Source: Virgibacillus phasianinus (GTDB taxonomy: Bacteria; Bacillota; Bacilli; Bacillales; Amphibacillaceae). Taken from it: 64,000 nucleotides of DNA. Below, piece by piece: positions 1 through 16,076 of the stretch. The notes below the pieces were generated by a model. That model worked only from the letters and a program-made list of their open reading frames with translations, was not told the DNA's origin and did no database searches. Position 1 is the stretch's first letter; the number at the start of each line of letters is the position of its first letter. The position numbers were made by a program, and so were the translations under genes. The stretch covers positions 2,542,001-2,606,000 of the forward strand of contig NZ_CP022315.1 of the NCBI RefSeq assembly GCF_002216775.1, written 5' to 3'.

Positions 1-756
1 GGCGAAAACCTAATTGATTATGGGACTTATACTTTGTCCAAAACAGAAAAACTCAAATATTCACTTATAGCCGCAGCTGTTATTTTTGTTGTTGGATTAA
101 TATTCTATGATAATTATATTGTATCTGGTATTTTGGCTTGTTTGGGAATATTTTATCCTAAATTTAAACGGAAAGATCTTATGAAAAAACGAAAAGATGA
201 ACTGTCATTGCAGTTTAAGGAGGCCATTAGTTCATTAGCTTCTTCTTTAGCAGCCGGTCAGTCGATTGAAAATGCCTTCCGAGTGGTTTTGAAAGATCTA
301 AAACTTCTTTATCCCGACGAAGAAACGTACATTGTTAAAGAGTTTAACCTAATTAATCGTAGAGTTGAAAATGGTGAAATAATTGAACGTGCAATTGATG
401 ACTTTGCAAAGCGTTCGGACATCGATGATATTCGAAATTTTTCTGATGTTTTTATCACCTGTAAACGAACCGGCGGCGACCTTGTGGAGGTTATTAAACG
501 AACAGCAGACATTATTACAGACAAAATAGAAATACAACAGGACATAAGAGTGCTAATTTCCCAAAAGAAATTCGAATCTAAGATAATGGCAGTAGCACCG
601 TTAGGTATTACTTTTTTTCTAAAAGTTTCATCACCGGAATTTGTTGCTCCATTGTATCAATTCGGAACATTTGGACCGGTTGTTATGACTGTTGCACTTA
701 TATGCATAATTTGTGGCCTTTTAATAAGCATGAAAATAATGAACATAGAAGTGTAG
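1..756 (+). CDS. tadB: TadB-like type II secretion F-domain membrane protein (5' partial)
   Basis: Inner-membrane platform protein of a Tad/Flp pilus machine. The frame is open from base 1. A TTG at 34 could serve as a start, but the in-frame codons before it carry protein-like sequence and no stop, so I think the true start lies left of the window. What is visible: an N-terminal hydrophobic pair (about bases 60-165), a soluble helical T2SSF domain with the segment LASSLAAGQSIENAF, and a C-terminal hydrophobic pair. The tadC-like gene follows 13 bases later. The motor ATPase (TadA) expected beside it is not in the window and is probably just upstream. Family assignment is firm; naming it TadB rather than TadC rests on gene order. 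Confidence 0.8.
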   Translation, partial: GENLIDYGTYTLSKTEKLKYSLIAAAVIFVVGLIFYDNYIVSGILACLGIFYPKFKRKDLMKKRKDELSLQFKEAISSLASSLAAGQSIENAFRVVLKDLKLLYPDEETYIVKEFNLINRRVENGEIIERAIDDFAKRSDIDDIRNFSDVFITCKRTGGDLVEVIKRTADIITDKIEIQQDIRVLISQKKFESKIMAVAPLGITFFLKVSSPEFVAPLYQFGTFGPVVMTVALICIICGLLISMKIMNIEV

Positions 757-769
757 AGGGGAAAATTCT

Positions 770-1636
770 ATGATATTAAAAATTATTTTAGTGGTGATCC
801 TTTTGGTTGTTGCAGTCACTAATTTAAAGAATAAAAAGGTTTACGATACATTTATCTCGACTTATAAGGAAGACATTACCTTGCCAATAATCGCGCCATA
901 TTCGTTTGCCATTATTGATAAATTCAATTTGTATCGGCGTATGCCTAAATTAATAAATACGATTCATCAAAAGATGATAATTTTAAGGGGGAGCAAGCTG
1001 TCCGGTGATTATACCAAAATTTACTTAGGGAAAATAATTACATCTATCACTTTAGTAATTTTTTTCAGTGTTGTCTTTATTGTGCTAGACGGTGGGGACT
1101 ATAGTAAACTATTGTATGGTTTCATTTTCACAGTCATAATTGGTTTTTACCTAGTGAAAGACCTAGACAAAAAGGTAAAGCAGCGCAAGGATTCTATGAT
1201 AATTGAACTTCCTGAATTTGTTAATAAAGTAATTCTTTTAGTAAATGCTGGTGAAACCGTTCAGGGGGCTATAAAAAAATGTGTCGATCAAAATAAAGCT
1301 AACATTTATGATTCACCGTTGTACTTCGAATTAAATGAAGCAGTGAATAAAATGTCTGCTAATACATCCTTTCAGGAGGTGATGAAAGACCTAAACTACA
1401 GGTGTGGTATTCAGGAAGTTTCCATCTTTACAACTACAGTTATGATGAATCACCGAAAAGGTGGGGCTCTATTGGTACAGTCACTAAAAGAGCTATCAGT
1501 ATCGTTATGGGAAAAGCGAAAAACCGTAACTCGGATTAAAGGGGAAGAAGCCTCATCTAAATTAGTATTTCCAATTATATTTATTTTTGGAGCTGTTTTA
1601 ATAATTGTTATTTATCCAGCTTTAGCTATATTTTAA
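770..1636 (+). CDS. tadC: TadC-like type II secretion F-domain membrane protein
   Basis: Second F-type platform protein of the Tad pilus assembly complex, 288 residues, starting at an ATG preceded by a GAGGGG ribosome site. It has an N-terminal membrane anchor, a hydrophobic pair near residues 85-125, a T2SSF domain with the segment VNKVILLVNAGETVQGAI, and a C-terminal membrane helix. It lies between tadB and a tiny pilin gene in one transcription unit. Tad systems normally carry two such paralogues, which likely form the membrane core that the ATPase acts on. It could be TadB and the upstream gene TadC; the pair is clear, the naming less so. Confidence 0.8.
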   Translation: MILKIILVVILLVVAVTNLKNKKVYDTFISTYKEDITLPIIAPYSFAIIDKFNLYRRMPKLINTIHQKMIILRGSKLSGDYTKIYLGKIITSITLVIFFSVVFIVLDGGDYSKLLYGFIFTVIIGFYLVKDLDKKVKQRKDSMIIELPEFVNKVILLVNAGETVQGAIKKCVDQNKANIYDSPLYFELNEAVNKMSANTSFQEVMKDLNYRCGIQEVSIFTTTVMMNHRKGGALLVQSLKELSVSLWEKRKTVTRIKGEEASSKLVFPIIFIFGAVLIIVIYPALAIF

Positions 1637-1653
1637 AAAAGGAGAGATTTTTA

Positions 1654-1833
1654 ATGGATCAATTTTCAAATTTTATGAAAGATTTCTGGAATGACGAGGA
1701 GGGATTGGAAACAATTGAAATACTGTTAATTTTGGCAGTGTTAATTTCCATTGCACTTCTATTCAAGGACCGAATCACAAGTTGGGCAAATAAATTATTT
1801 GACCAGGTTGATAAGCAGCTTCCTGGCAGCTAA
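1654..1833 (+). CDS. flp: Flp1-like type IVb pilin, 59 residues
   Basis: Small pilin subunit, probably the main structural protein of the appendage. A GGAGAG ribosome site lies just before the ATG. The peptide has a short charged N-terminus (MDQFSNFMKDFWNDEEG), then LETIEILLILAVLISIALLF, the hydrophobic assembly helix of type IVb pilins with a glutamate close after a glycine. It ends in an amphipathic tail with no further domain. The predicted processing point is after the glycine, by the prepilin peptidase encoded at 6765-7295. It sits between the platform genes and the first TadE-like gene, the expected place for flp. I would place it in the Flp1-like family of Firmicutes. Confidence 0.82.
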   Translation: MDQFSNFMKDFWNDEEGLETIEILLILAVLISIALLFKDRITSWANKLFDQVDKQLPGS

Positions 1834-1856
1834 CTATTAGAAGGGAAGGAGTACAT

Positions 1857-2492
1857 ATGAAATCCTTTTGTAAAGACGATAGGGGAAGTTTTACAATCGA
1901 AGCATCTTTTGTATTTCCTTCACTCCTGCTCTTTACCTTACTTGGTGTTTTCTTTTGCATTATTATTTTTCAGATAGGTACCGCCAATTACGTCGCGCAA
2001 AAGGCAGCTGCCCAGACTGCGTATGTTTGGGATAATTCTAATAAAGATTTGGAAACAGGTGAATTTGCCAAAAAATATTATGCTGGATTGGATACCGGTG
2101 GCGATGGTCTATACTGGCGCATCACGGATAATGGCATCTTAGGGATATTTGGCATTAGCGGTGGGCTTTTTCCAGGTAAATCACTTTCGGGAGAAAAAAT
2201 AGAGAACGCTGAAGCGGCATACAATGGCTCGATAAGTGTGGAATTAACGTATAATAATAAATTGGTATATAGTGAAGTTGAAGCTGAAGCTTCATCCTCC
2301 TTGTATATTCCTGCATTTGTTACAAAACTCCTTGGTAGCAATGTTGTAAAAGCAAAGTCAACACATGTGGTTACAGAAACTCCTGAATTAATACGTACGT
2401 TTAATTTCGCTAAGTATATGTGGACTAGATTTGGTGCTGGTGGTCCAGCATCAGGATTGTCAATTGGAAGCTTTTTTGGTGGTGCTAAATGA
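1857..2492 (+). CDS. TadE-like pseudopilin
   Basis: A 211-residue minor pilin-like protein. The N-terminus carries a class III signal, DDRGSFTIEASFVFP: glycine at residue 10, then glutamate five positions after the predicted cut, followed by a hydrophobic helix to about residue 40. The rest is an extracytoplasmic domain with no motif I recognise. The ribosome site AAGGAG precedes the ATG by about 6 bases. The stop overlaps the start of the next gene by four bases (ATGA), which suggests translational coupling to the TadG-like protein. In Tad systems TadE/TadF-type proteins are processed by the prepilin peptidase and are needed for assembly. Confidence 0.78.
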   Translation: MKSFCKDDRGSFTIEASFVFPSLLLFTLLGVFFCIIIFQIGTANYVAQKAAAQTAYVWDNSNKDLETGEFAKKYYAGLDTGGDGLYWRITDNGILGIFGISGGLFPGKSLSGEKIENAEAAYNGSISVELTYNNKLVYSEVEAEASSSLYIPAFVTKLLGSNVVKAKSTHVVTETPELIRTFNFAKYMWTRFGAGGPASGLSIGSFFGGAK

Positions 2493-4672
2493 TTAGCCCG
2501 GGCAAGGTGTTGATATTTATGAAAAAGAAATTTAAGCGACTATTTTTTAAAGATAATGGTTCTGTGTCTATATATGCAATCATCATTATCCTGCCAATTT
2601 TTATGCTTAATGCATTATTGATTGACACATTGCGAATTATGTCTGCCGAGCGACAGATTGAAAACGCAATGGACACAGCACTTCGATCCACAATGGCGGA
2701 ATTTGATACTAAGCTTGCAAGTGTAGGTTTGTTTGCATATGGTGGTGAAAGTGCAGATGCAGATTTCAATAGGTTTATTAATAAACAGTTTTATAATTCG
2801 GTTGAATTAAGTGGATATGAAAATTTGTCAAGTCCAGAAATTATAACCGCAAATGCAAATTTTACAAACGAAAGAAATTTAGTCGACTACGATGTTTTTG
2901 AGCATCAAATCCTAGAAAGTATGAAATATCAGGCGCCAGCACAAATAGGTGAGGCATTATTCACACTAGTAGGGTCAAAGAACCTGAATAATATTACGGA
3001 AGAGCAAGTGGAGAATGCAAAAAATGTGTCCGAGAACTATGAGAAAATCCTTGAGTTAACAGAAAAACGCAATGATGAAATTGACAAAGCGGTTAAAGAA
3101 TATAAACATTATAGTGCTGTTTTTAAGGACGACATACCGAATAAGATAATCGGTAATCCGGTTACCGATAATTCAAAAGATAAAAAGATCCCTTCAGGCA
3201 TTAAAACATTTGAAGAATTAATTTTTTATTATGATCGCTATCACAAACTTAAGAAAAAGGAAGAATTAAAAGATGGTGAACAACAAGAAATAGATAACTA
3301 TGAGAAAAATTACAATGAAGATGTTGCATTTTCCTATTATTTAAATGTGATAGCTGGAAAAGAAATAAAAAATGCCCTAGTAGGGAAAGGCGGAAGCTTA
3401 AGTTCACCAGCCAAGAATTCAGCTAAATGGTACAATAAAGAAATTAAAAAAATTCTGGATAAGGGAAAAGGAAAGTCGCTTAAAGCTTTGGAATCACTTT
3501 ATCTAGATAAATCGTTTTTTGAGACAGTTATTAATAATATGGATAAAGTTAATAAAGAATTGGATTTAGCGACTTCGGTACCTATTAGGGAAATTTTAAA
3601 ATCACAAGATCTAACAAATCTAACTATCACTCAATTAATAATGGTGTTTTATGTTGTAATCAAGAAAGAAAAATTTAAAGATCTTGCATTGCTGGTTAAA
3701 GACGCGGTAACTACAAAAACAACTAATATTGTAGATACGCAACTAGTTGCAATAGATGATCAGTTCCTTCTATACGAGGATTCCAAAAAAGAATTGAAAT
3801 CTGAGGAATATGGTGCTGCAAAAAAAGAAGCGAAGACAAGTTTCAGTGACTTACTAAATAGCTTGGGCAGTGCAAGGGAACTTGGTAATGATCAACAAGT
3901 ATACGATGAATTGGAAGGCATTATGGCAAGTTATAATGCTGCAACAAATGGCGGGGGAGATAAAGAAGAGTCTGATCGCTTGCAGTTTATTTCAGATGCA
4001 TTTAACCGTTTTAAAGAATTTGTGAATTTTGTTCATGGATTTCCTGAAGAATTCCGAAATCAATTGTATATTAATGAGTACATATTGGCTAATTATGGAA
4101 CATCACCTCCGTATGAGTTAATTGATGCTGAATCTTATCTATTCAAAAACAAACAAGGCCAATTCATAACGTATGGTTATGGCTCAGCGGGAACAAATTA
4201 CTTTATGTTTATTAAAGATATTGTACTGGTATTGTTTGTGGTGAATTTGATGGAATCTATGGTGAAAGGGGGATTCGCTGGACCAGTTGGATTTCTAAGG
4301 GCAGTTGGTCAAGCGTTTATTTTTACGGGAAAACAGTTGACTAATATCACTACTGGAGACTATGTTTTGGAATGGCAACCATTCAAAATAGCACAAATCG
4401 ATATGACGATGCCAATGTTTTTACGAATATTTATGATGATGCGGTCAACTGGTGAGAGTTATAATCATGAAAAGCTTAGACGTTTGCAGGCAGTAATTAC
4501 AAAAGATACTGGTGTTGATTTAAACAAAGCACCTTCCTACATTGAAGGAAATGTTAAAGGTAAAATAAAATTATGGTTTATCCCTGCATTAACAGAGGTA
4601 ATACCTAATCAATATGGCAATGTAAAGGGTAGTTATTATTATATAAATAAGAAAAAGGTTTATTCATACTAA
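2489..4672 (+). CDS. large TadG-like pilus assembly protein
   Basis: A protein of about 720 residues with a pilin-like N-terminus and a long extracytoplasmic body. Two starts are possible: ATG at 2489, overlapping the previous stop, or ATG at 2519 with CAAGGTG upstream. The N-terminal segment KDNGSVSIYAIIIILPIF resembles TadE/TadG proteins, but a tyrosine replaces the glutamate normally five residues after the cut, so processing is uncertain. The middle is lysine- and glutamate-rich and probably helical or coiled coil. A hydrophobic stretch appears near bases 4200-4330. It lies between tadE and a DUF4352 lipoprotein. TadG proteins often carry a VWA domain; I see none here, although a separate VWA lipoprotein is encoded at 13886. 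Confidence 0.65.
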   Translation: MISPGKVLIFMKKKFKRLFFKDNGSVSIYAIIIILPIFMLNALLIDTLRIMSAERQIENAMDTALRSTMAEFDTKLASVGLFAYGGESADADFNRFINKQFYNSVELSGYENLSSPEIITANANFTNERNLVDYDVFEHQILESMKYQAPAQIGEALFTLVGSKNLNNITEEQVENAKNVSENYEKILELTEKRNDEIDKAVKEYKHYSAVFKDDIPNKIIGNPVTDNSKDKKIPSGIKTFEELIFYYDRYHKLKKKEELKDGEQQEIDNYEKNYNEDVAFSYYLNVIAGKEIKNALVGKGGSLSSPAKNSAKWYNKEIKKILDKGKGKSLKALESLYLDKSFFETVINNMDKVNKELDLATSVPIREILKSQDLTNLTITQLIMVFYVVIKKEKFKDLALLVKDAVTTKTTNIVDTQLVAIDDQFLLYEDSKKELKSEEYGAAKKEAKTSFSDLLNSLGSARELGNDQQVYDELEGIMASYNAATNGGGDKEESDRLQFISDAFNRFKEFVNFVHGFPEEFRNQLYINEYILANYGTSPPYELIDAESYLFKNKQGQFITYGYGSAGTNYFMFIKDIVLVLFVVNLMESMVKGGFAGPVGFLRAVGQAFIFTGKQLTNITTGDYVLEWQPFKIAQIDMTMPMFLRIFMMMRSTGESYNHEKLRRLQAVITKDTGVDLNKAPSYIEGNVKGKIKLWFIPALTEVIPNQYGNVKGSYYYINKKKVYSY

Positions 4673-4688
4673 TTTGGAGGGATACGAA

Positions 4689-5273
4689 ATGAAAAAATTA
4701 TTGATTTTACTTTTTGCGGCATTATTAATTGTTGTAACCGGTTGTAGCGATGATTCCGATGATACTAGCAAAACAAATGATAACAATGAAAAGGCTTCGG
4801 AAACAACTAATAATGATGATAAAAAGGATGAAAAAAAAGAGGATAAAAAAGTTTATCAAATCGGTGAAACTGCTGAAATTACTAGTAGCACATATGAATT
4901 TCCATACGAAGTAACGGTAAACAGTTTTGAATTAACTAAAGATAAGGTTGATGGAGTGTCATTGGATGAAAAAGTATCAGAGGTCGATGAAGAGGATAGA
5001 TTTGCTGTTGTAAACGTGACAATTAAGAACACAAGTGATAGACCGTTTGTGCCAAATGAAAAAATATCTGCACAATTTATTTCGGAGACCCTAGGAGAAC
5101 AAACTGATGATTCCTTTTTTACAAAAAGAAATGAAAAACTTGAACCCGGGCAAGAAATTTCAGGTAATCTAGTTACTGTAATTGGTAATACAAATGATGA
5201 GGTATTCTATATTGTTTATGAGGCAATGTCTGGTGAGGAAACTAAATTTGAGTTGCCCAATCCGGAAAAATAA
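4689..5273 (+). CDS. DUF4352-type lipoprotein, paralogue 1
   Basis: Secreted lipoprotein of 194 residues. I chose the ATG at 4689 because GGAGG lies eight bases before it and the signal peptide then starts with MKKLLILLFAALL; an upstream TTG at 4674 is less likely. The lipobox ends in VVTGC, cysteine at residue 19. An acidic, low-complexity linker follows (many N, D, E, K), then an Ig-like domain beginning YQIGETAEITS, with the conserved phrases VNVTIKNTSDRPFVPN and LEPGQEISG typical of the DUF4352 fold. Three close paralogues are encoded at 5462, 11942 and 12701. Function unknown; its place in a pilus locus suggests a surface or periplasm-equivalent accessory role. Confidence 0.75.
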   Translation: MKKLLILLFAALLIVVTGCSDDSDDTSKTNDNNEKASETTNNDDKKDEKKEDKKVYQIGETAEITSSTYEFPYEVTVNSFELTKDKVDGVSLDEKVSEVDEEDRFAVVNVTIKNTSDRPFVPNEKISAQFISETLGEQTDDSFFTKRNEKLEPGQEISGNLVTVIGNTNDEVFYIVYEAMSGEETKFELPNPEK

Positions 5274-5294
5274 TAATTTCAAAAAATGAATTAC

Positions 5295-5352
5295 CTAAAG
5301 GTAGCTTTGCTACCTTTAGAAAAAGGAAGAGGTTAAATGTTTCTTCCTTTTT
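5295..5352 (+). terminator. double hairpin after first DUF4352 gene
   Basis: Two adjacent stem-loops. The first is a perfect 11-bp stem (5295-5305 with 5309-5319) and the second an 11-bp stem (5320-5330 with 5342-5352) whose right arm ends in a run of T. The second looks like an intrinsic terminator. It may attenuate rather than stop transcription into the next lipoprotein gene. Confidence 0.6.
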
Positions 5353-5461
5353 CTAAGGGCAGCAGGGCATTTGATTTTAATCAGTTCTATAATCACTTAG
5401 ATAGTGTTCTGGTTCCTGATCTTTTGTACTTTATTAAATATTAACATGGAGGGAAACGACT

Positions 5462-6010
5462 TTGAAAAAAATTATAATATTATTTCTTGCAATTGCAGTA
5501 ATTGCTGGATGTAGTGATGATACATCTGACAAAGGAAGTAAAGAAGATTCAAAAGAGGTCTCAAAAGATACAACCATACCGGAAGGCGAAGTATATTCAA
5601 TAAATGAGACTGCTGAAATAACCAATCCAAAGCATGGTTTTACATACGAAGTAACTGTTAACAGTTTTGAATTAACCGATAAATATAAAGATAAAACGAT
5701 GGATGAATTAAAGGTCGAAGGTTTCCCAGATGCAAAACTAGCAGTAGCCAATGTTACGATAAAAAATATAGGCGATCAAGTTTTTAAGCCAAGTCAAATA
5801 AAAAACTTACTTTTAACAGTGGATGGTAATGGTACGGGTAAAATGGATTTATCCCCAAGTTTAAACGTTGAATTAGAACCAGGAAAAGAGATAACAAAGG
5901 ATTTAGTATTTTTTTGTGTAATACCTTCCAGTGAATTATTTCTAGAGTTTGAACGTTACTCGGAATATGAGGCAAAATTTTCATTACCAAATGCTGAGAC
6001 TAATAAGTAA
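5462..6010 (+). CDS. DUF4352-type lipoprotein, paralogue 2
   Basis: Lipoprotein of 182 residues starting at TTG, with GGAGGG upstream. The signal peptide is MKKIIILFLAIAVIAGC (cysteine 17). A short acidic linker leads to an Ig-like domain with the same landmarks as its paralogues (YSINETAEITN, VTVNSFELTD, VANVTIKNIGDQVFKP, LEPGKEITK). It is the most divergent of the four and lacks the SDRPF phrase. It is separated from the first copy by a terminator-like double hairpin, so it may be expressed independently. Function unknown. Confidence 0.72.
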   Translation: MKKIIILFLAIAVIAGCSDDTSDKGSKEDSKEVSKDTTIPEGEVYSINETAEITNPKHGFTYEVTVNSFELTDKYKDKTMDELKVEGFPDAKLAVANVTIKNIGDQVFKPSQIKNLLLTVDGNGTGKMDLSPSLNVELEPGKEITKDLVFFCVIPSSELFLEFERYSEYEAKFSLPNAETNK

Positions 6011-6145
6011 CACCGCGTGAGTAAAAGTATTAAATTTTTTGTGGAGATGAATTGCCGTGATGTGGTTTCACTAAATTTAAGATTCATTAGGATATCATAT
6101 TAGGTTTTAAACCATAGTACAAAAATCATTGAAGGTGTGACTAAT

Positions 6146-6742
6146 ATGAAATTTTATAAAAAGGAAAATGGAAGTATCACTATTGAAGCAGCAATGATTA
6201 TACCGCTGTTCTTAATGTTAATTTTACTGCTTACATCCTTTGTAAAAATTTCGATAGCTGAAATGGCATTGAAGGAATCTGTTAGCGAAACAGCACAAAC
6301 TGTTGCACATTACTCTTATCTAGCCATGGTAGCGCAAAATACTATAAAACAAAAATCAGACGCCTTTGTTGACAGTTTGACAGAAAAAGCAGGGGCTAGT
6401 GTGGGGCTTGAAAACAATGTCATTGCGAATACATTATTAGGCAAGATAGCGGATAGTGGTAAGAAGTTAATCCCAACTTCGGGAAATGTAATGAATGATT
6501 TTTCGAATGGGGTTTACGAAACGGTAGTGAAACAAAAATATAAACAAAAAGTAGGAAGTTCAAGTTTCTTCAACCCCGAGGGCATTACGGTTGTGAATTC
6601 ATCCGTTCCTGAAGGTACAAGCGGAGAGTCAGCATTAGTAAAGGTTGAGGCTGAAAACACGCTTCAATTGATTATACCGTTTTTCCAAAAAGAAATAACA
6701 ATAAAGAAAAAAGCAGTAGAACGCGGCTGGGTTGGTAATTAG
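6146..6742 (+). CDS. TadE-like pseudopilin, second copy
   Basis: A 198-residue pilin-like protein. I prefer the ATG at 6146 (GAAGGTG ribosome site) over the GTG at 6137. The N-terminus reads KKENGSITIEAAMIIPLFLM: glycine, then glutamate at +5, then the hydrophobic helix, a canonical prepilin-peptidase substrate. The rest is an extracytoplasmic helical and beta region without a recognised motif. The prepilin peptidase gene follows within about 20 bases, so processing enzyme and substrate are probably co-expressed. Confidence 0.77.
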   Translation: MKFYKKENGSITIEAAMIIPLFLMLILLLTSFVKISIAEMALKESVSETAQTVAHYSYLAMVAQNTIKQKSDAFVDSLTEKAGASVGLENNVIANTLLGKIADSGKKLIPTSGNVMNDFSNGVYETVVKQKYKQKVGSSSFFNPEGITVVNSSVPEGTSGESALVKVEAENTLQLIIPFFQKEITIKKKAVERGWVGN

Positions 6743-6764
6743 TTAAAAGAAAGGAGTGAAGTAC

Positions 6765-7295
6765 ATGCAAGGGCAATTTATTATTTTGATTATTTTTTTA
6801 TGTATTGTTTTTTACTATGATGTCAGACAGTCGCGTATCCCTAATTGGTTAAATGTTAGTGGTGCTTTAGTTGGACTGTTATATCACCTACTAGTGAATC
6901 AAATTGATGGCTTGTTAAATTCTGTTTTCGGTTTGTTAGCAGGAGGTTTAATACTATTGTTGTTATACTTTTTTAAAGCGATTGGTGCTGGTGATGTTAA
7001 GTTGTTTGCAGCCATTGGTGCAATTTGTGGAGTTTTGTTTACATTATATGCAGTAATGTATTCCATCATTTTTGCAGGAATTATAGGACTTATTATCTTA
7101 TTATTCACGAAGACGTTTTTAATTAATATGACTTTAGCCTTTTTACACATAATGGAATCTATTAAGGACAGGACCTTGACCCCGTTGGATGATTTTAAAA
7201 AGAATGTTTCTAACCGATTTCCATTTATTTATGCGGTAGTACCAGGTGTTTTTACGTCATTTTATTATATGTATATTGCTCAAGGAGGGATTTAG
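6765..7295 (+). CDS. tadV: prepilin peptidase, A24 (TadV/CpaA) family
   Basis: Membrane aspartyl protease that removes the leader from Flp and TadE-like prepilins. ATG at 6765 is chosen because AAAGGAG lies eight bases upstream. The 176-residue protein is almost entirely membrane helices. Both catalytic aspartates are visible: D19 in YYDVRQSRIPNWLN and D77 in GAGDVKLFAAIG, matching the two loops of the A24 family. It lacks the N-terminal methylase domain of PilD-type enzymes, as expected for TadV. Its stop is immediately followed by the GTG start of the FHA gene, so the two are likely coupled. Confidence 0.88.
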   Translation: MQGQFIILIIFLCIVFYYDVRQSRIPNWLNVSGALVGLLYHLLVNQIDGLLNSVFGLLAGGLILLLLYFFKAIGAGDVKLFAAIGAICGVLFTLYAVMYSIIFAGIIGLIILLFTKTFLINMTLAFLHIMESIKDRTLTPLDDFKKNVSNRFPFIYAVVPGVFTSFYYMYIAQGGI

Positions 7296-8738
7296 GTGTC
7301 CAATCAACTTTATAACTTTTATGTAGATTATGCTCAATCAAATGGTTCATATATGAAAATACGAAAAACGAAAGAAAAGGGATTTCAATCAACTGACCTT
7401 CAAGAACTTCAATTAAAAATGATTCAATCCAACACAATCCCACGTTTAGTTCCAATGAATTTTGAAGAAATCAACGGCAAAATTACGGTTATGTACAGCA
7501 TAGATGGATTACGAAAATTAAGGCCACTGTCAAAAGAACGTCCGTTATCCATGCAAGATTATTATTCTTTGTTTATAAATATTATCCAGGCATTACAGGA
7601 CTCGAATAATTATATGCTTGAGGATCAACAATACGTTCTAAACGAAGATTATATTTACGTTGGAAATGGCTATCACCAAGTGTATTTAACTTACCTGCCA
7701 TTGAATGATATTAAGAATAAGCCTTCGTTATATGAAGATTTGAAAAAGCTGCTACTTAATATTGCAGGTGAGGTACAGGGACTGAAGGGTGTCCAGTTTA
7801 AAATGATTCTAAGTTACATAAAAGATCCAGGCTTTAGTTTGCAAGGACTGAAGCAATTGTTAAGCCAGATGCACGAAGCACAAGAAGAAATTAAGGAGGA
7901 AAGCTCTAACCTAGAATCTGATCAAGATGAAGAAACAACTGTAATAAAAAAGGTTAAAAAACTTCCGCCATTGGATAGAAAGATGAAACTTTACTCAGTA
8001 TTGTTTGGTGTCTTAGCTCTAGCAATTGTTTGGAAACTATTTGGCGGTTCCTCGATTACAATTTCAACCGTTTTGAGCGTAGTCGTTATTGCGGCTGTGT
8101 TTATTTATTGGAAAGTTTGGCGGCCTGGAATTGAACCAATTGTTACAGAAAAGGAAGTCAAGGTTAAGAAGAAACAAAGTACAGCGAAACCAGTCCGAAA
8201 GCAAAAAAGTGTATCAGACTCTTCAGAAACGGAAACAGACTCTGTTCATCCACAGGTAGACGTTGACTTTAACAATCACGATGATCTGGAATTAGTAAAA
8301 CAAGCGATAGCACAACATTCAGAGAGTGCTTCGGCTCTACATGTTGATACAACAACTAATGACGTTTCTTCAAATCAGCGTGATCAGACCATGCTGTTGG
8401 ATGAGGAAGAAATCAATACTGGCGGTAAAAGTACAGCATTAAAGAACTATATAATGGTGAAACGAGCAGATGGAGAAGAAAGAATTGACTTAGAGAGTGA
8501 CAACTTTATCATTGGACGCGCCGATAAAGGGACTGATTTTGTAGAAAAGGGCATTGGTATTTCCAGATTACATGTTGAATTTGTAAAGTTGTCAGATACG
8601 TATGGATTAAAGGATTTAGGAGCAAAAAATGGAACATACATTAATGATGAAAAAATTATTCCATATAAGATACATGAATTAAAAGATGAAGATCAAATCC
8701 GAATCGGCAAAACAAATTATACGTATAGGGTGTCGTAA
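7296..8738 (+). CDS. membrane FHA-domain protein with DUF6382-type N-terminus
   Basis: Phosphothreonine-reading protein of 480 residues; GTG start with AAGGAGG upstream. Residues 1 to about 190 match DUF6382, a domain seen in Firmicute Tad loci. Two membrane helices lie around residues 232-275, followed by a basic linker. The C-terminal FHA domain (about 395-478) shows the key motifs FIIGRADKG, GISRLHVEF and LGAKNGTYIND. The N-terminal domain resembles in layout the N-terminus of the EssB-like protein at 10420 (see findings). With the adjacent phosphatase and kinase it forms a phospho-signalling set, likely docking phosphorylated proteins at the pilus base. The partner is inferred, not shown. 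Confidence 0.82.
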   Translation: MSNQLYNFYVDYAQSNGSYMKIRKTKEKGFQSTDLQELQLKMIQSNTIPRLVPMNFEEINGKITVMYSIDGLRKLRPLSKERPLSMQDYYSLFINIIQALQDSNNYMLEDQQYVLNEDYIYVGNGYHQVYLTYLPLNDIKNKPSLYEDLKKLLLNIAGEVQGLKGVQFKMILSYIKDPGFSLQGLKQLLSQMHEAQEEIKEESSNLESDQDEETTVIKKVKKLPPLDRKMKLYSVLFGVLALAIVWKLFGGSSITISTVLSVVVIAAVFIYWKVWRPGIEPIVTEKEVKVKKKQSTAKPVRKQKSVSDSSETETDSVHPQVDVDFNNHDDLELVKQAIAQHSESASALHVDTTTNDVSSNQRDQTMLLDEEEINTGGKSTALKNYIMVKRADGEERIDLESDNFIIGRADKGTDFVEKGIGISRLHVEFVKLSDTYGLKDLGAKNGTYINDEKIIPYKIHELKDEDQIRIGKTNYTYRVS

Positions 8739-8743
8739 TAATA

Positions 8744-9583
8744 ATGAATAAAAGAAAAGAAATTTACCCTGGACATATTAGTGAAAAGGGTCCGGAAAAG
8801 CCGGTAAATGAAGACTTTATAGAATTCACATCAAGTTCGATTGACTTTCATGATGATGCCCATATCCTAATCATTGCAGATGGCATGGGCGGTCATGCCT
8901 TTGGTGATGTTGCAAGTTTTTACGCTGGAAACTATATTTTAAAATGGTGGAGAGCCAAATTACGTAAAAATAAGACTTCTGAAGAATTTCTAAAGGACTG
9001 TCAGGATTCAATAGTCGATATATTTTGTACAATTAATCAAAAGTTGATTGAAATTGGACATCGAGAGGATAGTAATTTAGGTACTACCCTTAGTGTATTG
9101 CTGTTTGTAGGGGGGAAATACCTTATTTGTCATGTCGGAGATTCAAGAATATACCGATTAAGTAAAAAAATCTATGAATCTACTGATAATGATGAAACCT
9201 TTGACCTTAACCAATCAAAAGCATTCGTTCAACTTACAAAGGACCACTCATGGGCAAAAATGCAGGTTGAAAACGGTAATATGTCGGAACAGGAAGCGGA
9301 AAATCACGAGAAGGCACACATACTCACACAATGTATGGGTATTAAGGGTAATGTGGATCCGTTTGTTTCAATGGGGACGTATACTGAAGACGATCACTTT
9401 TTTATGTGTACGGATGGATTATATGCTTTACTGACAAATGAAATAATAAATGAACAATGGAGTAAGAAGCTTAACGAAAAGTTAGCTGCACAAGATATAG
9501 CTAATCATTTTTTTGAATTGGCTAAGGATGCTGAATATCATGATGATGTATCCATAATGATAGTTGATAGCATGGGAGTATGA
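8744..9583 (+). CDS. PP2C-family Ser/Thr protein phosphatase
   Basis: Metal-dependent protein phosphatase of 279 residues, lying between the FHA and kinase genes. Family motifs in order: IADGMGGHAFGD (metal-binding aspartate), CHVGDSRIYRL, LTKDHSW, CTDGLYALL and DDVSIMIV. No membrane segment, so it is cytosolic. It starts six bases after the FHA stop. The expected role is to reverse phosphorylation by the neighbouring kinase, as in PrpC/PrkC pairs, here dedicated to the pilus locus. It is larger and more divergent than housekeeping PrpC. Confidence 0.88.
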   Translation: MNKRKEIYPGHISEKGPEKPVNEDFIEFTSSSIDFHDDAHILIIADGMGGHAFGDVASFYAGNYILKWWRAKLRKNKTSEEFLKDCQDSIVDIFCTINQKLIEIGHREDSNLGTTLSVLLFVGGKYLICHVGDSRIYRLSKKIYESTDNDETFDLNQSKAFVQLTKDHSWAKMQVENGNMSEQEAENHEKAHILTQCMGIKGNVDPFVSMGTYTEDDHFFMCTDGLYALLTNEIINEQWSKKLNEKLAAQDIANHFFELAKDAEYHDDVSIMIVDSMGV

Positions 9584-9590
9584 AACAGTG

Positions 9591-10394
9591 ATGAAGGTAG
9601 TAGATCAAGAATTTGTCAATGGAAAGTATAAAGTAATAAGGTATTTGCGTGACGGGGGGACTTCACAATTATACGAAGTTAAGGGGCCAAAGGGACAAAC
9701 AGTCATTTTAAAAGTTGTAAAACAACCAACTACATTGTTTATAGACCAGCTGAATAATGAAGCAAAAATATTAGCAAATATAAATCATCCTAACATACCT
9801 AAACTTTATGATAAATTAACGCTCAATAGGCATTATCATGCAATAGTTATTGAGAAAATTGATGGGGAAAGCATAGCTGATTTAGTCGAGAAAAAGGATA
9901 AGAAATTTAGCTGGGAAGAATCATTACATATTTCTAAAGAACTAGCGAAATTAATCCATATATTTCACTTAAACAATCCAGCCATAGTTATTCGTGACAT
10001 TAAACCATCAAATATTTTATTGACAAAACAGAATGACGTATATCTAATTGATTTTGGCACATCTATGTTTTTAAATGATGCAAATCAAGCCACCGCCTTA
10101 GGAACAATAGGATTTGCTGCACCTGAACAATTTGAAAATGGGGTTGTTGATTTACGCTCAGATCAATTTTCGTTAGGAGCTACAATTTTCTTTATGTTAA
10201 CAAGGGGGCAGAATATTTATACATCCAACAGACAAAATATTTTGGATGGGCATATTCCAAAGGCCTTTGTAAAAGTTATTAGTAAATTAACAGAGACAGA
10301 TGTAACGAATCGTTATGATTCAATTGAAAAAGTTTTAAGCAAGCTTGGCCAAGTAAAAGTCTCTTGGTGGGAGCGTAAGAAAAAATTTATATAA
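9591..10394 (+). CDS. soluble Hanks-type Ser/Thr protein kinase
   Basis: A kinase of 267 residues made of the catalytic domain only; no membrane helix or PASTA repeats, unlike PrkC. From the ATG at 9591 (a GTG at 9588 and a TTG inside the phosphatase are alternatives) the active-site residues are K41 (VILK), E57 in the C-helix, D136 and N141 in IRDIKPSNILL, D154 in IDFGTS, and AAPEQF at the end of the activation loop. The HRD histidine is isoleucine, a mild change; the enzyme should be active. The glycine loop is reduced (LRDGGTSQLYEV). The start lies close behind the phosphatase stop, so they are co-translated. The FHA protein and pilus proteins are plausible substrates. Confidence 0.87.
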   Translation: MKVVDQEFVNGKYKVIRYLRDGGTSQLYEVKGPKGQTVILKVVKQPTTLFIDQLNNEAKILANINHPNIPKLYDKLTLNRHYHAIVIEKIDGESIADLVEKKDKKFSWEESLHISKELAKLIHIFHLNNPAIVIRDIKPSNILLTKQNDVYLIDFGTSMFLNDANQATALGTIGFAAPEQFENGVVDLRSDQFSLGATIFFMLTRGQNIYTSNRQNILDGHIPKAFVKVISKLTETDVTNRYDSIEKVLSKLGQVKVSWWERKKKFI

Positions 10395-10419
10395 TGACAA
10401 ATATTAAAGAGGTGATGAA

Positions 10420-11811
10420 ATGACTGATCAATTTGGGAATCAACAAGGATCTATTAAAGAAAATGATAATTTTGTAATCTTTGAAATTCCAAAGGTTAAA
10501 ACTAATTTGGTTGCAGATGAACAACTGGAAGAATTAAAAAGGGAAACACATTTATTTTTAGTTTGCGAGGAATATACAATTGAAGAAACAATGGTTCGCA
10601 TTTATTATAAATTAGAAGATGGATTTCAAGCCCTCAATAATTACTCAAATGCAAGCAGAGAGGTAAAGTGTAAAATTGCCCGAAATATACTAGCCGTTGA
10701 TGATCTATTTGGTACCCAATATACAACGCTCCTTCATCCAGATAATATATATGCCAGTGCAAAAGGAGAAGTGAAATTTGCTCATCGCGGTATACGGTCT
10801 GTATTACCTCCAGAAGAGTTATCATCTGTCCAATTACTTCAGGATTTAAAAAAAGTATTTCTATTTTTATTTACCCGTAACAATGTAACTGACATAAGTC
10901 AAATTAATTTGAACCAAAAATCTGAGAATCAAGATATAATTAAACATGTTCTTGGAGCAACCTCAATAAAAGAAATAGAAAAGGCATTAGTGTCAAAACC
11001 AATTTCAATACAAAAAGTTGAAGAGAAAACACAACAAACAAAAGATACAAATCAATCTAAACTTCCAAAAACAAACAGTAAGAAACCCCTTATAATGGGA
11101 CTCTTAATAGGTGTAATAATAGGAATGCTTTTGTTATATGTAGGTAAGGTTCTCCCTATGAATGCAGAATCAACTAGCGCTGTGGCGGAGTATAATGAGA
11201 AACAAGATCAGTTGGAATCAACAAATAAGAAACTCAAAAATGAAATAGCAAATAATAAACAGGTTCTGAAGGCATACCGGCTAGCTGTTACAGGCAAAGT
11301 TGAAGAATCAATAGCATCATTTGAAGAAGTAGAGAGTTTGGATAAAGACGCTAAAAATACACTTATAGAACAATATATTGCATTGGATACACTAGAAAGT
11401 CTTACAAAAGCCTCTACGATGAATGAGAATTATCATATTCAAGTGGTAAATAGCTTAGTTGATTTGAACAGTAAAGAGGCAAATGATGTTATTTTATCTA
11501 TCAAGTCGGATAAACCAGAAATACTTATTGAACAATCATGGATTAACAATGACTATAAAAAGACAATTGAAATTTATAAGTCCATTTCTGATAATAATCG
11601 GGCGAAGTATATTGCTGCAAAAAGTTATATTGAGCGGAAAAAACCAAAGGAATCATTAAAATTAGCTAGAGAATTAAAGAACAAAGATCTTCAACTTGCT
11701 AGCTTAAATAGTGAAAAAAAGCTGACTAAAGCTGATGATTCATTAGATGAAGATAAACGAAAAAGTATAATAGATAATATTAATAAAGCTATTGATAAGT
11801 TGAAGAAATAA
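10420..11811 (+). CDS. EssB/YukC-like membrane protein
   Basis: A 463-residue protein with the layout of EssB/YukC, the single-pass pseudokinase-fold component of type VII secretion: N-terminal domain (about 1-195), one membrane helix (about 223-243, after a K/Q-rich linker), then a coiled-coil start (about 250-275) and a helical repeat region. Segments LLHPDNIY, FAHRGIRSVLPPEE and YIAAKSYIERKKPKESLKLA recall EssB. It lacks kinase catalytic residues. No WXG100 substrates or EssC ATPase are in the window, so it probably serves the Tad-like machine here. The similarity is from memory of the family and should be tested by profile search. Confidence 0.68.
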   Translation: MTDQFGNQQGSIKENDNFVIFEIPKVKTNLVADEQLEELKRETHLFLVCEEYTIEETMVRIYYKLEDGFQALNNYSNASREVKCKIARNILAVDDLFGTQYTTLLHPDNIYASAKGEVKFAHRGIRSVLPPEELSSVQLLQDLKKVFLFLFTRNNVTDISQINLNQKSENQDIIKHVLGATSIKEIEKALVSKPISIQKVEEKTQQTKDTNQSKLPKTNSKKPLIMGLLIGVIIGMLLLYVGKVLPMNAESTSAVAEYNEKQDQLESTNKKLKNEIANNKQVLKAYRLAVTGKVEESIASFEEVESLDKDAKNTLIEQYIALDTLESLTKASTMNENYHIQVVNSLVDLNSKEANDVILSIKSDKPEILIEQSWINNDYKKTIEIYKSISDNNRAKYIAAKSYIERKKPKESLKLARELKNKDLQLASLNSEKKLTKADDSLDEDKRKSIIDNINKAIDKLKK

Positions 11812-11821
11812 CCTTGTTGAA

Positions 11822-11941: not shown

Positions 11942-12526
11942 ATGAAAAAGATATTAGTTTTACTTTTTGCTACGTTGTTAATTGGGCTTGCCGCTTGTAG
12001 TGATGACCCTGACAATGAAAGCAAGTCAGGGTCAGAGGATAATGAACAGGCATCGGAGAAAGTTGATAAAGAGAATGACAAGGGAGAAACGAAAAAAATC
12101 TACCATATTGGTGATACGGCAAAAATTACAAGCAGTACCTATGAATTTCCATATGAAGTTACAGCTAATAGTTTCGAGTTAACTTCAGATAAAGTTGATG
12201 GAGTTGGTCTCGAAAAGTTTGGTTATACAGCCGAAGAAGGCGGAAAATTTGCAGTTATTAATGTAACTATCAAAAATACAAGCACTCGTCCATTTATTCC
12301 TAATGATAAAATTTCCGCGCAGCTTGTTTCAGATTCACTAGGCATGAACTCTGAAGATGAAGATTTTTTTAAAGAAAGAAATGTAGAGTTAAAACCAGGA
12401 GAAGAAATAACGGGAAACATAGTTTATATAAGCAGTGATTTTTATGAAGATAATGTTCTTTATATGATATATGAATACAAGGCAAATGAAGAAACACGTT
12501 TTGAATTGCCTGTCCCTGAAAAATAA
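11942..12526 (+). CDS. DUF4352-type lipoprotein, paralogue 3
   Basis: Lipoprotein of 194 residues, ATG start. The signal peptide MKKILVLLFATLLIGLAAC has its lipid-modified cysteine at 19. After an acidic linker the Ig-like domain repeats the family landmarks (YHIGDTAKITSSTYEFPYE, VINVTIKNTSTRPFIPN, LKPGEEITG, TRFELPVPEK). It is very close to paralogues 1 and 4, which implies recent duplication. It lies downstream of the EssB-like gene, so the DUF4352 genes bracket the signalling module. Role unknown. Confidence 0.74.
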   Translation: MKKILVLLFATLLIGLAACSDDPDNESKSGSEDNEQASEKVDKENDKGETKKIYHIGDTAKITSSTYEFPYEVTANSFELTSDKVDGVGLEKFGYTAEEGGKFAVINVTIKNTSTRPFIPNDKISAQLVSDSLGMNSEDEDFFKERNVELKPGEEITGNIVYISSDFYEDNVLYMIYEYKANEETRFELPVPEK

Positions 12527-12700: not shown

Positions 12701-13273
12701 ATGAAAAAGATATTAGTTTTGCTTTTTGCAACATTATTACTTGTTGTATCTGCCTGTGATGATTCTGATGAAGCTAGTAAATCGAATGATAATGATGAAA
12801 AAGCTTCTGAAACAACTGGTGATAACAAAAAGGGTGAAAAACTAAAGGATAAAAGGATATATCGGATTGGGGAAACTGCTGAAATCTTTAGCAGTACATA
12901 TGATTTTCCATATGAAGTGACCGTAAATAGTTTCAAGTTGACGACTGATGCGGTTGAAGGTGTTACTTTGGCCGATAAAGGGTATGACGGCAGTCGCAAT
13001 GGTAAGTTTGCTGTGGTAAATGTGACAATTAAAAATACAAGCGACCGTCCATTTGTTCCTAAAGAAAAGATTTCCGCTCAATTACTTTCAGAAAGTGTTG
13101 CGGAAACCTCGGATGACAAATTTTTTAAAGAAAGAAATGAAGAATTAAAGCCTGGAGAAGAAGTTACAGGTAACTTAGTGTATACGCACAGTTTCGATGA
13201 TGAGGTATATTTTTTAACATATGAACAAAAAGCAACTACAGAGACTAAATTTGAATTACCTGTTACTAATTAA
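12701..13273 (+). CDS. DUF4352-type lipoprotein, paralogue 4
   Basis: Lipoprotein of 190 residues starting at ATG, with TGGAGTG upstream. The lipobox LLVVSAC gives cysteine 19, and the first ten residues are identical to those of paralogue 3. The Ig-like domain has YRIGETAEIFSSTYDFPYE, VVNVTIKNTSDRPFVPK and LKPGEEVTG. It is followed directly by decayed fragments of tadG, prepilin peptidase and FHA genes, the same order of neighbours as paralogue 1, so it probably arose when a block of the locus was duplicated. Confidence 0.74.
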   Translation: MKKILVLLFATLLLVVSACDDSDEASKSNDNDEKASETTGDNKKGEKLKDKRIYRIGETAEIFSSTYDFPYEVTVNSFKLTTDAVEGVTLADKGYDGSRNGKFAVVNVTIKNTSDRPFVPKEKISAQLLSESVAETSDDKFFKERNEELKPGEEVTGNLVYTHSFDDEVYFLTYEQKATTETKFELPVTN

Positions 13274-13423: not shown

Positions 13424-13435
13424 TATGGAAACAAT

Positions 13436-13530: not shown

Positions 13531-13537
13531 AACATTA

Positions 13538-13628: not shown

Positions 13629-13846
13629 TCCAATCTATTCTATAATTTTTTATGTAGATTATGCTCAATAATGGTTCCTATATGGAAATACGAAAATCGA
13701 AAGAAACTGGATTTCAGTCAACTGACCTTCAAGAACTTCAATTAAGAATGATACTCCAACACGATTCTACGTCTTGTTCCAATAAAATTTGAAGATAAAT
13801 GATAAATTTTGGTTATGTACAGCATAGATGAATTGCGAAGTACGCA
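13627..13846 (+). pseudogene. remnant of the FHA-protein gene 5' end
   Basis: GTGTCCAATC begins a stretch of about 220 bases matching the first codons of the intact FHA gene (7296-7518). The blocks TTATGTAGATTATGCTCAA and CAACTGACCTTCAAGAACTT are identical. Frameshifts and stops inactivate it. The next intact gene is the VWA lipoprotein. Confidence 0.8.
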
Positions 13847-13885
13847 AAATGAAGTATCGGAAAATTTACTTAGGAGGATGAATCA

Positions 13886-15259
13886 ATGAACAAGAAACTA
13901 TTTTTATTTTCCCTGCTCGCATTATTTTTAATGCTCTTCCTTGTAGCTTGCAGTTCAAGCGAAGAGGCATCAGGTGATCAAGGTAATGAAACAAAGGAAG
14001 AAAAGTCAGAAGATGATCAACAAAAGGAAAATGAGAAGCAAGAAAAAGAAAATGAAATTATAGAGCCTGCGACAAGTGTAGAGGAAATCATTAAACAAGA
14101 GCCCGGTGAATTTGCTGGACACAACTATAATGAGGCAGTTGTACATAGGGATTTAGATGGTAAACATTTTCAGGAAAAAAGCAGTCTTGAAGTTTATAGC
14201 TATTTGTTAACCCTTATGGGTGAAGGGGATAACTACACGGAGTACCACGACTATTTTAAGGAATTCAATCCACATATAACGACTGAATTAACGAATATGC
14301 CTGGTGGTATGCAGATTAGTGACGATAATGAAATTAGTTTTAATACAAACATAGCTATTTTAGTAGATTCAAGTGGAAGCATGGGGCAAAAGATTGCCGG
14401 GTATACAAAAATGGAATTGGCTAAAAATGCTGTGAACGAATTTGTCGCCTCAATGCCCGAAGGATCAAATGTAATGCTAAGGGTATATGGCCATAAAGGA
14501 AGCAGTAGTGACAAAGATAAGAAGCTTTCCTGTGGCAGTACCGAAGTAGTATATGATTTCCAACCTTATAATGAAAAGAAATTTGGAAAAGCATTGGATA
14601 AATTTGAACCTAAAGGATGGACGCCTTTGGCAAAAGCCATTAGCGAAACAAAAAAAGACTTTGAAAATGCAGAAAAGGGAAAAAATATTATCTATATCGT
14701 TAGTGATGGAGTAGCTACCTGTGGTGGTGATCCAGCCAAGGCTTCAAAGGAACTTCATGATTCCAATATTGAGGCAGTCGTAAATATTATCGGATTTGAT
14801 GTCGACAACAAAGGCCAGGAACAATTACTTTCAGTTGCTGAAGCTGGCGGTGGAGAATTTGAAACAGTGGATACAGCAGAGGATTTCAAATCAATTTGGA
14901 AAGAAGAGCGTCAACGCCTATGGAGCGAGTGGTATGACTGGGGCAATGAAAACTGGAATGCAGTTTGGGATGAACAAACTAATAAGAAAAATGAGTTATG
15001 GGATATGAAAAATGATGTTGGAAATTTGATCTATGATGAAAAATCCCGTATGAAAGAAGCTTCCTATTATCTACAACAAGAAGATCAGTACGAATCCGAT
15101 ATGAGACAAGAAATTGATAGCTTGATTGAACAACGCTATGAAATTCTGGATGACTATATATCAGATACGTATGACGACTTAAAAGAAACCCTTGAAACGG
15201 AAGGCGACGATTTGAAAGATGCAATAGAGAAAAAAGGAGAAGAAATGAAGGAAAAATAA
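13886..15259 (+). CDS. VWA-domain lipoprotein
   Basis: Surface lipoprotein of 457 residues; ATG with AGGAGG upstream. Lipobox LFLVAC gives cysteine 22, then a strongly acidic E/K/Q linker. A von Willebrand A domain spans about 155-335 with an intact metal site: D161, S163, S165 in VDSSGSMG, a threonine in GWTPLAKAI and an aspartate in IVSDGVATCGG. The two cysteines LSCGS and ATCGG may pair. The C-terminal third is charged, tryptophan-rich, then long helical or coiled coil. Similar VWA domains are part of TadG proteins; here TadG lacks one and a separate lipoprotein is encoded in the locus. An adhesive or assembly role is an inference. Confidence 0.8.
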   Translation: MNKKLFLFSLLALFLMLFLVACSSSEEASGDQGNETKEEKSEDDQQKENEKQEKENEIIEPATSVEEIIKQEPGEFAGHNYNEAVVHRDLDGKHFQEKSSLEVYSYLLTLMGEGDNYTEYHDYFKEFNPHITTELTNMPGGMQISDDNEISFNTNIAILVDSSGSMGQKIAGYTKMELAKNAVNEFVASMPEGSNVMLRVYGHKGSSSDKDKKLSCGSTEVVYDFQPYNEKKFGKALDKFEPKGWTPLAKAISETKKDFENAEKGKNIIYIVSDGVATCGGDPAKASKELHDSNIEAVVNIIGFDVDNKGQEQLLSVAEAGGGEFETVDTAEDFKSIWKEERQRLWSEWYDWGNENWNAVWDEQTNKKNELWDMKNDVGNLIYDEKSRMKEASYYLQQEDQYESDMRQEIDSLIEQRYEILDDYISDTYDDLKETLETEGDDLKDAIEKKGEEMKEK

Positions 15260-15386
15260 GATGATTGACAACCAAAATGATTAATAGAGTAATGGAAAAG
15301 GTAATACTCTAATGTATCACCAAAACATGTACCAGTGAATAATATCTATTTTTTAAATAGGGAACGTATTGTCAGGAGGAAATAAT

Positions 15387-16076
15387 TTGAAAAAAGTTTT
15401 AATGATTTTGTTAATTGGATTGCTTATTGCAGGATGCAGCAATGATCCTGATGAAAGTAAGGAAAAGAAAGACAAAGAGGATTCGACTACAACAACTACT
15501 AAAAATGAAAATGCAGAGTCCAATTCTGATAATGAATCGGAACAAGAAGAAAAAAAGAAAGTAGAACTTAATAAGGAGTTAGAACATGAAAAGTATGATG
15601 AACTTGCAAAAAAGTATTTTAATGCGTGGCTAGTAAGTGATTATGATACCATGAAGAGCTTCTTATCCGATAAGTCCTATAAAGTACATATGGAGATAAT
15701 TAGTATAGATGTTATGGGACTAAAGGGGGCAGGTCCAGGTGAAATCGGGAACCCGGAATATAAAGATATGGTAGGAGAAAAGTTTGAAATTCTTGCAAGT
15801 GACTTTTATTTTAAAGATCATGGTTTGGTCCTATATTTAGTTGAATTTAACAATCCGCTAACTGAAAAAAATAAAGATGATGTAAAATATACAATGTTTG
15901 GAGTCAAAAAGGAAAACGGAAAATTAACAGAAGTTGGCGCAGGTGGGGTACTGGAAAGAGAATTCTTTAGAGAGGAAAACTTTGGTGGAAAACTAATGTC
16001 ATTTGGTTCTGTAGAGACAATAATAAAAAAATATCCTAAGCATGGATATATGGTACACGAATATTCCACAGAGTAA
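15387..16076 (+). CDS. lipoprotein of unknown function
   Basis: Lipoprotein of 229 residues. I chose TTG at 15387 (AGGAGGA seven bases before) because it starts the signal peptide directly; cysteine 17 lies in LLIAGC. A threonine/serine- and acid-rich linker leads to a globular domain of about 160 residues with the phrases YFNAWLVSDYDTMKSFLSDKSY and EVGAGGVLEREFF, reminiscent of NTF2-like or DUF4878-type lipoprotein domains, but I do not assign it. It is the last gene of the accessory locus and is followed by a strong hairpin. Confidence 0.65.
   Translation: MKKVLMILLIGLLIAGCSNDPDESKEKKDKEDSTTTTTKNENAESNSDNESEQEEKKKVELNKELEHEKYDELAKKYFNAWLVSDYDTMKSFLSDKSYKVHMEIISIDVMGLKGAGPGEIGNPEYKDMVGEKFEILASDFYFKDHGLVLYLVEFNNPLTEKNKDDVKYTMFGVKKENGKLTEVGAGGVLEREFFREENFGGKLMSFGSVETIIKKYPKHGYMVHEYSTE

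Follow-up and report, generated by a model that had tools for sequence, protein, structure and literature searches.

Genome annotation treats EssB/YukC as a hallmark of type VII secretion systems (T7SS). In the T7SSb class, represented by YukC of Bacillus subtilis and EssB of Staphylococcus aureus, YukC is a hub whose pseudokinase domain binds the FHA region of the system's ATPase, and in B. subtilis it also contacts the LXG effector YxiD (PMC9600267). The EssB fold recurs in TraF of pIP501, an essential hub in a type IV secretion system (T4SS) (PMC13037476). A survey has described a further class, T7SSe, which comprises TseJ (a DUF6382-FHA protein), TseF, TseD, TseH and TseI, and has recorded Tad genes adjoining T7SSg and T7SSh, the significance of which was left open there (PMC11217815). 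Here we describe a Tad pilus locus from the complete 4.07-Mb genome of Virgibacillus phasianinus that continues into genes for a DUF6382-FHA protein, a PP2C phosphatase, a Ser/Thr kinase and an EssB/YukC-family protein. It lies at the start of the window, i.e. the 64,000-nucleotide stretch analyzed (positions 2542001-2606000). Our favored interpretation, in which we place moderate confidence, is a Tad (type IVc) pilus that has its own kinase/phosphatase/FHA switch to govern its assembly or activity and uses an EssB-family transmembrane pseudokinase as a scaffold.

Like the Tad/Flp pilus loci of other Gram positive bacteria, the locus encodes TadZ, TadA, TadB, TadC, a putative Flp-like pilin, two TadE proteins, a TadG-like protein and TadV in one run. 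In contrast to them, it adds DUF6382-FHA, PP2C, a kinase, an EssB-family scaffold, and DUF4352 and VWA lipoproteins. We found no description of EssB in a Tad locus, or of such additions to Tad, in the open literature searched, although an earlier notice elsewhere is possible, as most subscription journals and preprints lay outside the search.

A Tad locus continuing into a kinase, phosphatase, FHA and EssB gene set

The locus comprises window bases 1-11811 together with tadZ, tadA and the start of tadB immediately upstream (Table 1). The genes follow each other in the order tadZ, tadA, tadB, tadC, the Flp-like pilin gene, tadE, the TadG-like gene, two DUF4352-type lipoprotein genes, a second tadE and tadV, followed by the DUF6382-FHA, PP2C, kinase and EssB genes, two DUF4352 lipoprotein genes, a VWA lipoprotein gene and a final lipoprotein gene. 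From tadV to essB, the genes either overlap or are separated by 0-25 bp, and a terminator-like stem at 16084-16111 closes the run. Promoter-like sites are no more frequent in the locus than in shuffled sequences, so no operon boundaries were drawn from them. The TadA-type ATPase, TadZ, TadB, TadC, the TadE-like pseudopilins and TadV together place the machinery among Tad/Flp pili, an assignment made by gene content. The name of the TadG-like protein rests mainly on position and order, because its PF13400 score falls under the cut-off; a protein of equal size occupies the same place in related loci. The first-pass annotation, made from the letters of the window, had described two platform proteins, a Flp-like pilin, two TadE proteins, a TadG-like protein and a prepilin peptidase running into FHA, PP2C, kinase and EssB genes, with six lipoproteins around them. 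Reading frames and Pfam profiles locate every one of these genes where it had been placed, and six lipobox proteins were found.

The juxtaposition noticed in a single genome recurs in relatives. A search with EssB alone across 84,980 species yielded 11 loci, all 11 of which have the order TadV-FHA-PP2C-kinase-EssB, and in a family search 25 genomes out of 159 had a Tad-type EssB (E < 1e-85), with the order present in 20/20 loci taken from these. Among 249 genomes of the order (our samples hold one genome per species), about sixty PF10140 matches reached E < 1e-90 and belonged to T7SSb, versus a few weak ones. Six of the weak matches are in Tad loci of identical gene order (the window's own genome, G150, G049, G159, G139 and G036), and two others lie within conjugation clusters (G185 and G161). 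Removal of four duplicates left 31 distinct loci, all recovered with EssB queries, among which some named loci and G handles may still be one genome. TadV-FHA-kinase-EssB is found in 31/31 and PP2C in 30, being missing in G036. Since this order is kept across several genera, including Virgibacillus, Oceanobacillus, Lentibacillus, Paucisalibacillus, Alkalicoccobacillus, Lederbergia and Salipaludibacillus, among others, it supports the view that the genes from tadV to essB constitute one putative functional unit. As far as sampled, the unit is limited to Bacillaceae-like families, because an even sample of the phylum (398 genomes) contained the TadV-FHA-PP2C-kinase-EssB order in the window's own genome only. 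Extra genes within the run take the form of a zinc-ribbon gene between kinase and essB in L039 (9624-10433) and L055 (9023-9811) or a lipoprotein gene between tadV and FHA in L093 and L095. A zinc-ribbon protein longer than those of L039 and L055 is encoded divergently from tadZ in the window's genome (L003:9528-11045).

EssB-family proteins in Tad loci, T7SS and conjugation clusters

The naming of the EssB/YukC relative was borne out by PF10140 (91.8 bits, cut-off 27.4), which matches mainly the cytoplasmic domain with a second stretch at the C-terminal end. Like T7SSb EssB, the window protein combines a pseudokinase, one transmembrane (TM) segment and a helical ectodomain; the kinase motifs HRD and DFG are lost, as expected of a PF10140 family member, and an HPDNI...HRG motif is held in common with T7SSb EssB. 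When an AlphaFold model built from 12 relatives (predicted local distance difference test score, pLDDT, 80.5) was compared with the PDB by Foldseek, the top match, which extends along the entire protein, was B. subtilis YukC (6z0f, E 3.6e-12); S. aureus EssB came next, then pIP501 TraF and the core unit of the B. subtilis T7SSb. The Tad-family profile reaches TraF by sequence as well (8cba, E 1e-8). However, the window protein scores only 88 bits against TIGR03926, the NCBI equivalog for EssB of T7SS, whose cut-off is 229.75, and it differs from T7SSb EssB in its clade. Its closest relative is from V. oceani (55% identity), and in our tree 15 Tad-linked EssB proteins formed one group (support 98/95), 30 T7SSb EssB proteins formed another (100/100), and the T4SS proteins were separate from both.

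The genome lacks the other T7SS parts that were sought. No WXG100 match (PF06013, E 1e-3), no EssC-sized ATPase and no second EssB (PF10140 profile search) was found in the complete genome, EsaA and EssA not having been searched, and its two FtsK/SpoIIIE proteins, at about 760 amino acids each, are too small to be EssC. The locus is not a T7SS. A hidden T7SS elsewhere in the genome was sought by the same searches for WXG100, EssC and EssB and not found, nor was any WXG100/EssC locus to which these genes could belong. Four of the five other Tad-EssB genomes in the order sample likewise have no WXG100 and no EssC; the fifth, G036, encodes a distinct EssC-like protein and two WXG100 proteins 1.3 Mb away. 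With one EssB clade tied to Tad pili in genomes that lack a T7SS, and with relatives in conjugation systems, EssB by itself is no evidence of a T7SS.

The first-pass annotation had spoken of a phosphorylation-controlled Tad appendage with a scaffold borrowed from type VII secretion. The joint Tad/EssB unit is supported by the profile match, the gene order and the lack of a T7SS. Borrowing would give the transfer a direction that our tree, midpoint-rooted and with some long rows, does not show; the Tad, T7SSb and T4SS proteins are in separate groups, and TraF represents a third user of the fold (PMC13037476). Tad, T4SS and T7SS appear to have EssB-type modules in common, and "shared EssB-fold scaffold" is the safer wording. 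The TraF-like genes found here differ from the window in lying within conjugation clusters devoid of FHA, kinase and PP2C. Plasmids were considered as carriers of Tad-type EssB and rejected, as they gave five weak matches, the best being a T4SS gene between TrbL and VirD4; among the remaining ones, two are from Listeria (one annotated as EssB) and the others were not Tad as far as inspected. On a Priestia megaterium plasmid (NZ_CP069398.1), L070:13977-15293 is annotated as "type VII secretion protein EssB/YukC", stands between the TrbL and VirD4 conjugation genes, and probably encodes a TraF-like T4SS protein with a misleading name. An EssB relative near a contig end in G218 (L063:8930-10483) is outside any Tad, T4SS or T7SSb context as far as visible; that genome also carries a T7SSb EssB.

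Searching the 249 genomes with TadV and FHA profiles gave 13 Tad loci of this type, six with EssB, three with T7SSe-type genes and four with neither module. DUF6382-FHA is present at 13/13. The DUF6382-FHA core is thus constant and the membrane partner varies, since all three kinds of loci keep the former. The T7SSe-type loci (G051, G059 and G094; L057, L060 and L059) close instead with genes for a further PP2C, a kinase-TM-TPR protein, a small TM protein and a large protein (1500-1900 amino acids), the last of which is cut by the end of the sequence retrieved in two of the three and Ig-like in G051, the sole one scanned. These match TseF, TseD, TseH and TseI of a T7SSe-like locus in G089 (L068), which has two WXG100 genes and a 1562-amino acid EssC-like protein; the TseD relatives are 57-69% identical over their full length and those of TseF 43-53%. 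Neither WXG100 nor EssC was found anywhere in the G059 and G094 genomes. The window resembles T7SSe in its DUF6382-FHA and phosphatase parts, but at the membrane it has EssB, with a soluble kinase as a separate protein, whereas TseD unites kinase, TM and TPR in one chain. With two TM segments, its FHA protein resembles the published TsfJ of T7SSf and not TseJ (PMC11217815). Related Tad loci in which T7SSe parts replace EssB provide a way to ask about scaffold roles apart from the movement of WXG100 substrates. In L061 and L062 (G037 and G077), Tad loci have no kinase adjoining PP2C, and L061 has tandem-repeated PP2C-lipoprotein units.

These distributions also bear on whether there is a unit at all. 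The window could instead hold two separate neighbors, a plain Tad pilus and a kinase/PP2C/FHA/EssB set with another job such as cell wall control, perhaps the relic of a lost T7SS. Sets of this kind serve many processes, EssB is the only one of the T7SS parts tested that the genome encodes, and EssB is missing from 7 of the 13 Tad loci just described. We nevertheless regard such an arrangement as unlikely, given the order fixed in all 31 loci, the short gaps in the window and the invariable DUF6382-FHA gene in the order sample. Furthermore, a relic would not be expected to keep one well-supported clade with full-length open reading frames.

A candidate phosphorylation switch

Three features suggest that the pilus may be phosphorylation-controlled, as had first been proposed. 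Firstly, the kinase keeps its catalytic residues K50, E66, D145, N150 and D163 (Lys, Glu, Asp, Asn and DFG). Secondly, the FHA residues predicted to bind phosphothreonine (G407, R408, S423, H426, N445 and G446) are invariant in 12 sequences; those of the EssC FHA domains are not kept (PMC11217815, PMC9600267). Thirdly, the linker that joins the TM pair to the FHA domain is poorly alignable apart from a (D/E)xT(V/M/I)LL motif followed by acidic residues, the threonine of which, Thr365 in the window, is a candidate phospho-switch residue. Of the 31 loci, 30 contain this TxLL motif, many of them in two copies, and it is also present in each of the seven EssB-less Tad loci of this type (the reading for G077 was made by eye); by comparison, shuffling the linkers of the first 15 loci gave an expectation of about 0.5. 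TseJ of the T7SSe-like locus in L068 has GTTVLG and ATTTLG at the equivalent place. The nearest PDB relatives of the FHA domain are those of DgcB, GarA and OdhI, which likewise have a conserved threonine motif before FHA. The FHA domains of GarA and OdhI bind a phosphothreonine of their own tail. The same has been reported for Bdellovibrio DgcB (PMC6733907). In contrast to these proteins, the window FHA domain sits on a two-TM protein with a pseudokinase-like domain, and its phosphorylation is predicted.

That domain, DUF6382, is probably an EssB-like pseudokinase, judging by its predicted fold. The FHA protein is modeled well only in places (mean pLDDT 62.9, with the first 190 residues mostly at 70-90), but its top PDB match is YukC (E 8.5e-5), followed by kinases, and the strand-helix order of DUF6382 equals that of the EssB model. 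The sequence profiles of EssB and DUF6382-FHA have no similarity (hhalign probability 0.2%). If DUF6382 is such a pseudokinase, each EssB-type Tad locus would pair one catalytic kinase with two pseudokinases via one FHA phospho-switch.

Based upon these features, a working scheme can be proposed. The DUF6382-FHA protein is predicted to be anchored in the membrane; the kinase would phosphorylate Thr365 in its linker, and the FHA domain of the same or a neighboring molecule would bind the phosphorylated threonine, with Leu at +3, as in GarA/OdhI and DgcB, thereby changing the state of the protein until PP2C resets the switch. The cytoplasmic pseudokinase of the EssB-like protein would dock on the FHA/DUF6382 protein, in the way that YukC engages the FHA domains of its T7SSb ATPase, and its TM segment and ectodomain would link the state of the switch to the cell wall and the TadA/B/C motor, thus gating pilus assembly. 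The DUF4352 and VWA lipoproteins would probably form the outer part.

Several points weigh against this scheme. Contact between the EssB-like protein and TadA/B/C is conjectural. The switch may also control something other than the EssB contact, since FHA and pseudokinase seem to associate independently of phosphorylation in T7SSb (PMC9600267). The seven loci without EssB indicate that EssB is not needed for Tad assembly in general. G036, the single locus without PP2C, also lacks TxLL, a joint absence that fits a phospho-switch but is a single case. From the T7SSb contacts, and from Tad loci that keep FHA and PP2C without EssB, it could be argued that the EssB-like protein has no role beyond anchoring or spacing the pilus machine within the wall, with the switch acting on lipoproteins, TadZ or transcription independently of EssB. 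We consider this very doubtful, because the kinase gene is immediately 5' of essB in nearly all loci and TseD fuses a kinase to a TM and TPR part, both of which hint that kinase and scaffold work together.

A different output is conceivable as well, in which the Tad machine serves for contact-dependent secretion or killing, EssB recruits effectors in the manner of YukC and YxiD, and the kinase set triggers upon contact. Myxococcus xanthus provides a precedent in Kil, a Tad-like apparatus that kills and includes several FHA proteins (PMC8460266), and YukC does contact an LXG effector (PMC9600267). In Kil, however, FHA is fused to the ATPase, and the text of PMC8460266 mentions no kinase or phosphatase and does not note EssB. 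The locus showed no effector or immunity gene and the genome no WXG100, and the surroundings are pilins, pseudopilins and lipoproteins, all of which makes a killing function improbable.

Returning to the phospho-switched Tad pilus, a broader proposal can be made, one we hold to be evenly balanced between right and wrong. EssB-type pseudokinases, DUF6382-FHA, a Hanks-type kinase and PP2C may form a portable regulatory and scaffolding module not bound to one export machine, with parts that serve T7SS, conjugative T4SS and Tad pili. The Tad versions, EssB plus soluble kinase or TseF-TseD-TseH-TseI, would be interchangeable, and DUF6382 would itself be an EssB-like pseudokinase. The locus offers a testable candidate phosphorylation switch for Gram positive Tad pili, whose control is poorly known, and it is a naturally occurring case of neighboring genes for a pseudokinase, a kinase with its catalytic residues intact, a phosphatase and an FHA protein.

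Lipoproteins and genomic setting

Table 1. Features of the V. phasianinus locus. Plain coordinates are window positions; L003 denotes the stretch carrying the genes upstream of the window.
Feature	Position	Strand	Evidence
TadZ, MinD/CpaE-like	L003:11390-12496		directly upstream of window
TadA	L003:12465-13787		directly upstream of window; top-scoring model TIGR03819 (TadA family) with 299.8 bits and E 2.5e-89, below the cut-off of 373 bits
TadB platform protein, 3' part	1-756	+	T2SSF E 1.5e-11; complete 309-aa open reading frame at L003:13827-14756
TadC platform protein	770-1636	+	T2SSF E 5.8e-7
Flp-like pilin, 59 aa, MDQFSNFMKDFWNDEEGLETIEILLILAVLISIALLFKDRITSWANKLFDQVDKQLPGS	1654-1833	+	named by direct reading of sequence; Flp-like hydrophobic segment at expected place
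TadE-like pseudopilin 1	1857-2492	+	PF07811 25.9 bits, cut-off 22.9
TadG-like protein, 727 aa	2489-4672	+	PF13400 (Pfam "Tad" N-terminus) 17.9 bits, under 22.3 cut-off
DUF4352 lipoprotein	4674-5273	+	PF11611 E 2.5e-7; lipobox
DUF4352-like lipoprotein	5462-6010	+	PF11611 E 8e-5, just under cut-off; LPAM_1 lipobox
TadE-like pseudopilin 2	6137-6742	+	PF07811 23.8 bits, cut-off 22.9
TadV prepilin peptidase	6756-7295	+	PF01478 E 4e-19
DUF6382 - two TM - TxLL linker - FHA protein, 480 aa	7296-8738	+	PF19909 E 2.6e-23; PF00498 E 3.8e-14
PP2C-type phosphatase	8744-9583	+	PF13672 E 2e-13
Hanks-type Ser/Thr kinase, soluble	9564-10394	+	PF00069 E 2e-32
EssB/YukC-family pseudokinase - TM - helical ectodomain, Tad-linked clade	10420-11811	+	PF10140 E 5.2e-26
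DUF4352 lipoprotein	11942-12526	+	PF11611 E 2.9e-7
DUF4352 lipoprotein	12701-13273	+	PF11611 E 4.3e-8
VWA-domain lipoprotein	13886-15259	+	PF00092 E 1.2e-12; homologues near other Tad/EssB loci
Lipoprotein without clear family; locus membership uncertain	15369-16076	+	lipobox only

The six lipobox proteins consist of four DUF4352-like proteins, the VWA protein and one without a family. In two other genomes (L066:7484-10346 in G035 and L067:7430-10292 in G235), the gene of a distant EssB relative overlaps that of a VWA lipoprotein similar to the one in the window, and this overlap suggests that the VWA lipoprotein and EssB-like proteins are partners. The pair in L067 adjoins a different Tad locus, and the contig of L066 ends too early to tell.

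The G+C content of the locus (window 1-16076) is 33.8%, versus 39.5% in the remainder of the window and 37-38% upstream (L003). Because of this low G+C content, and because the flanking genes resemble B. subtilis yutC/lytH/yunBC and yutEFGH, the Tad locus may be an insertion into a core region.

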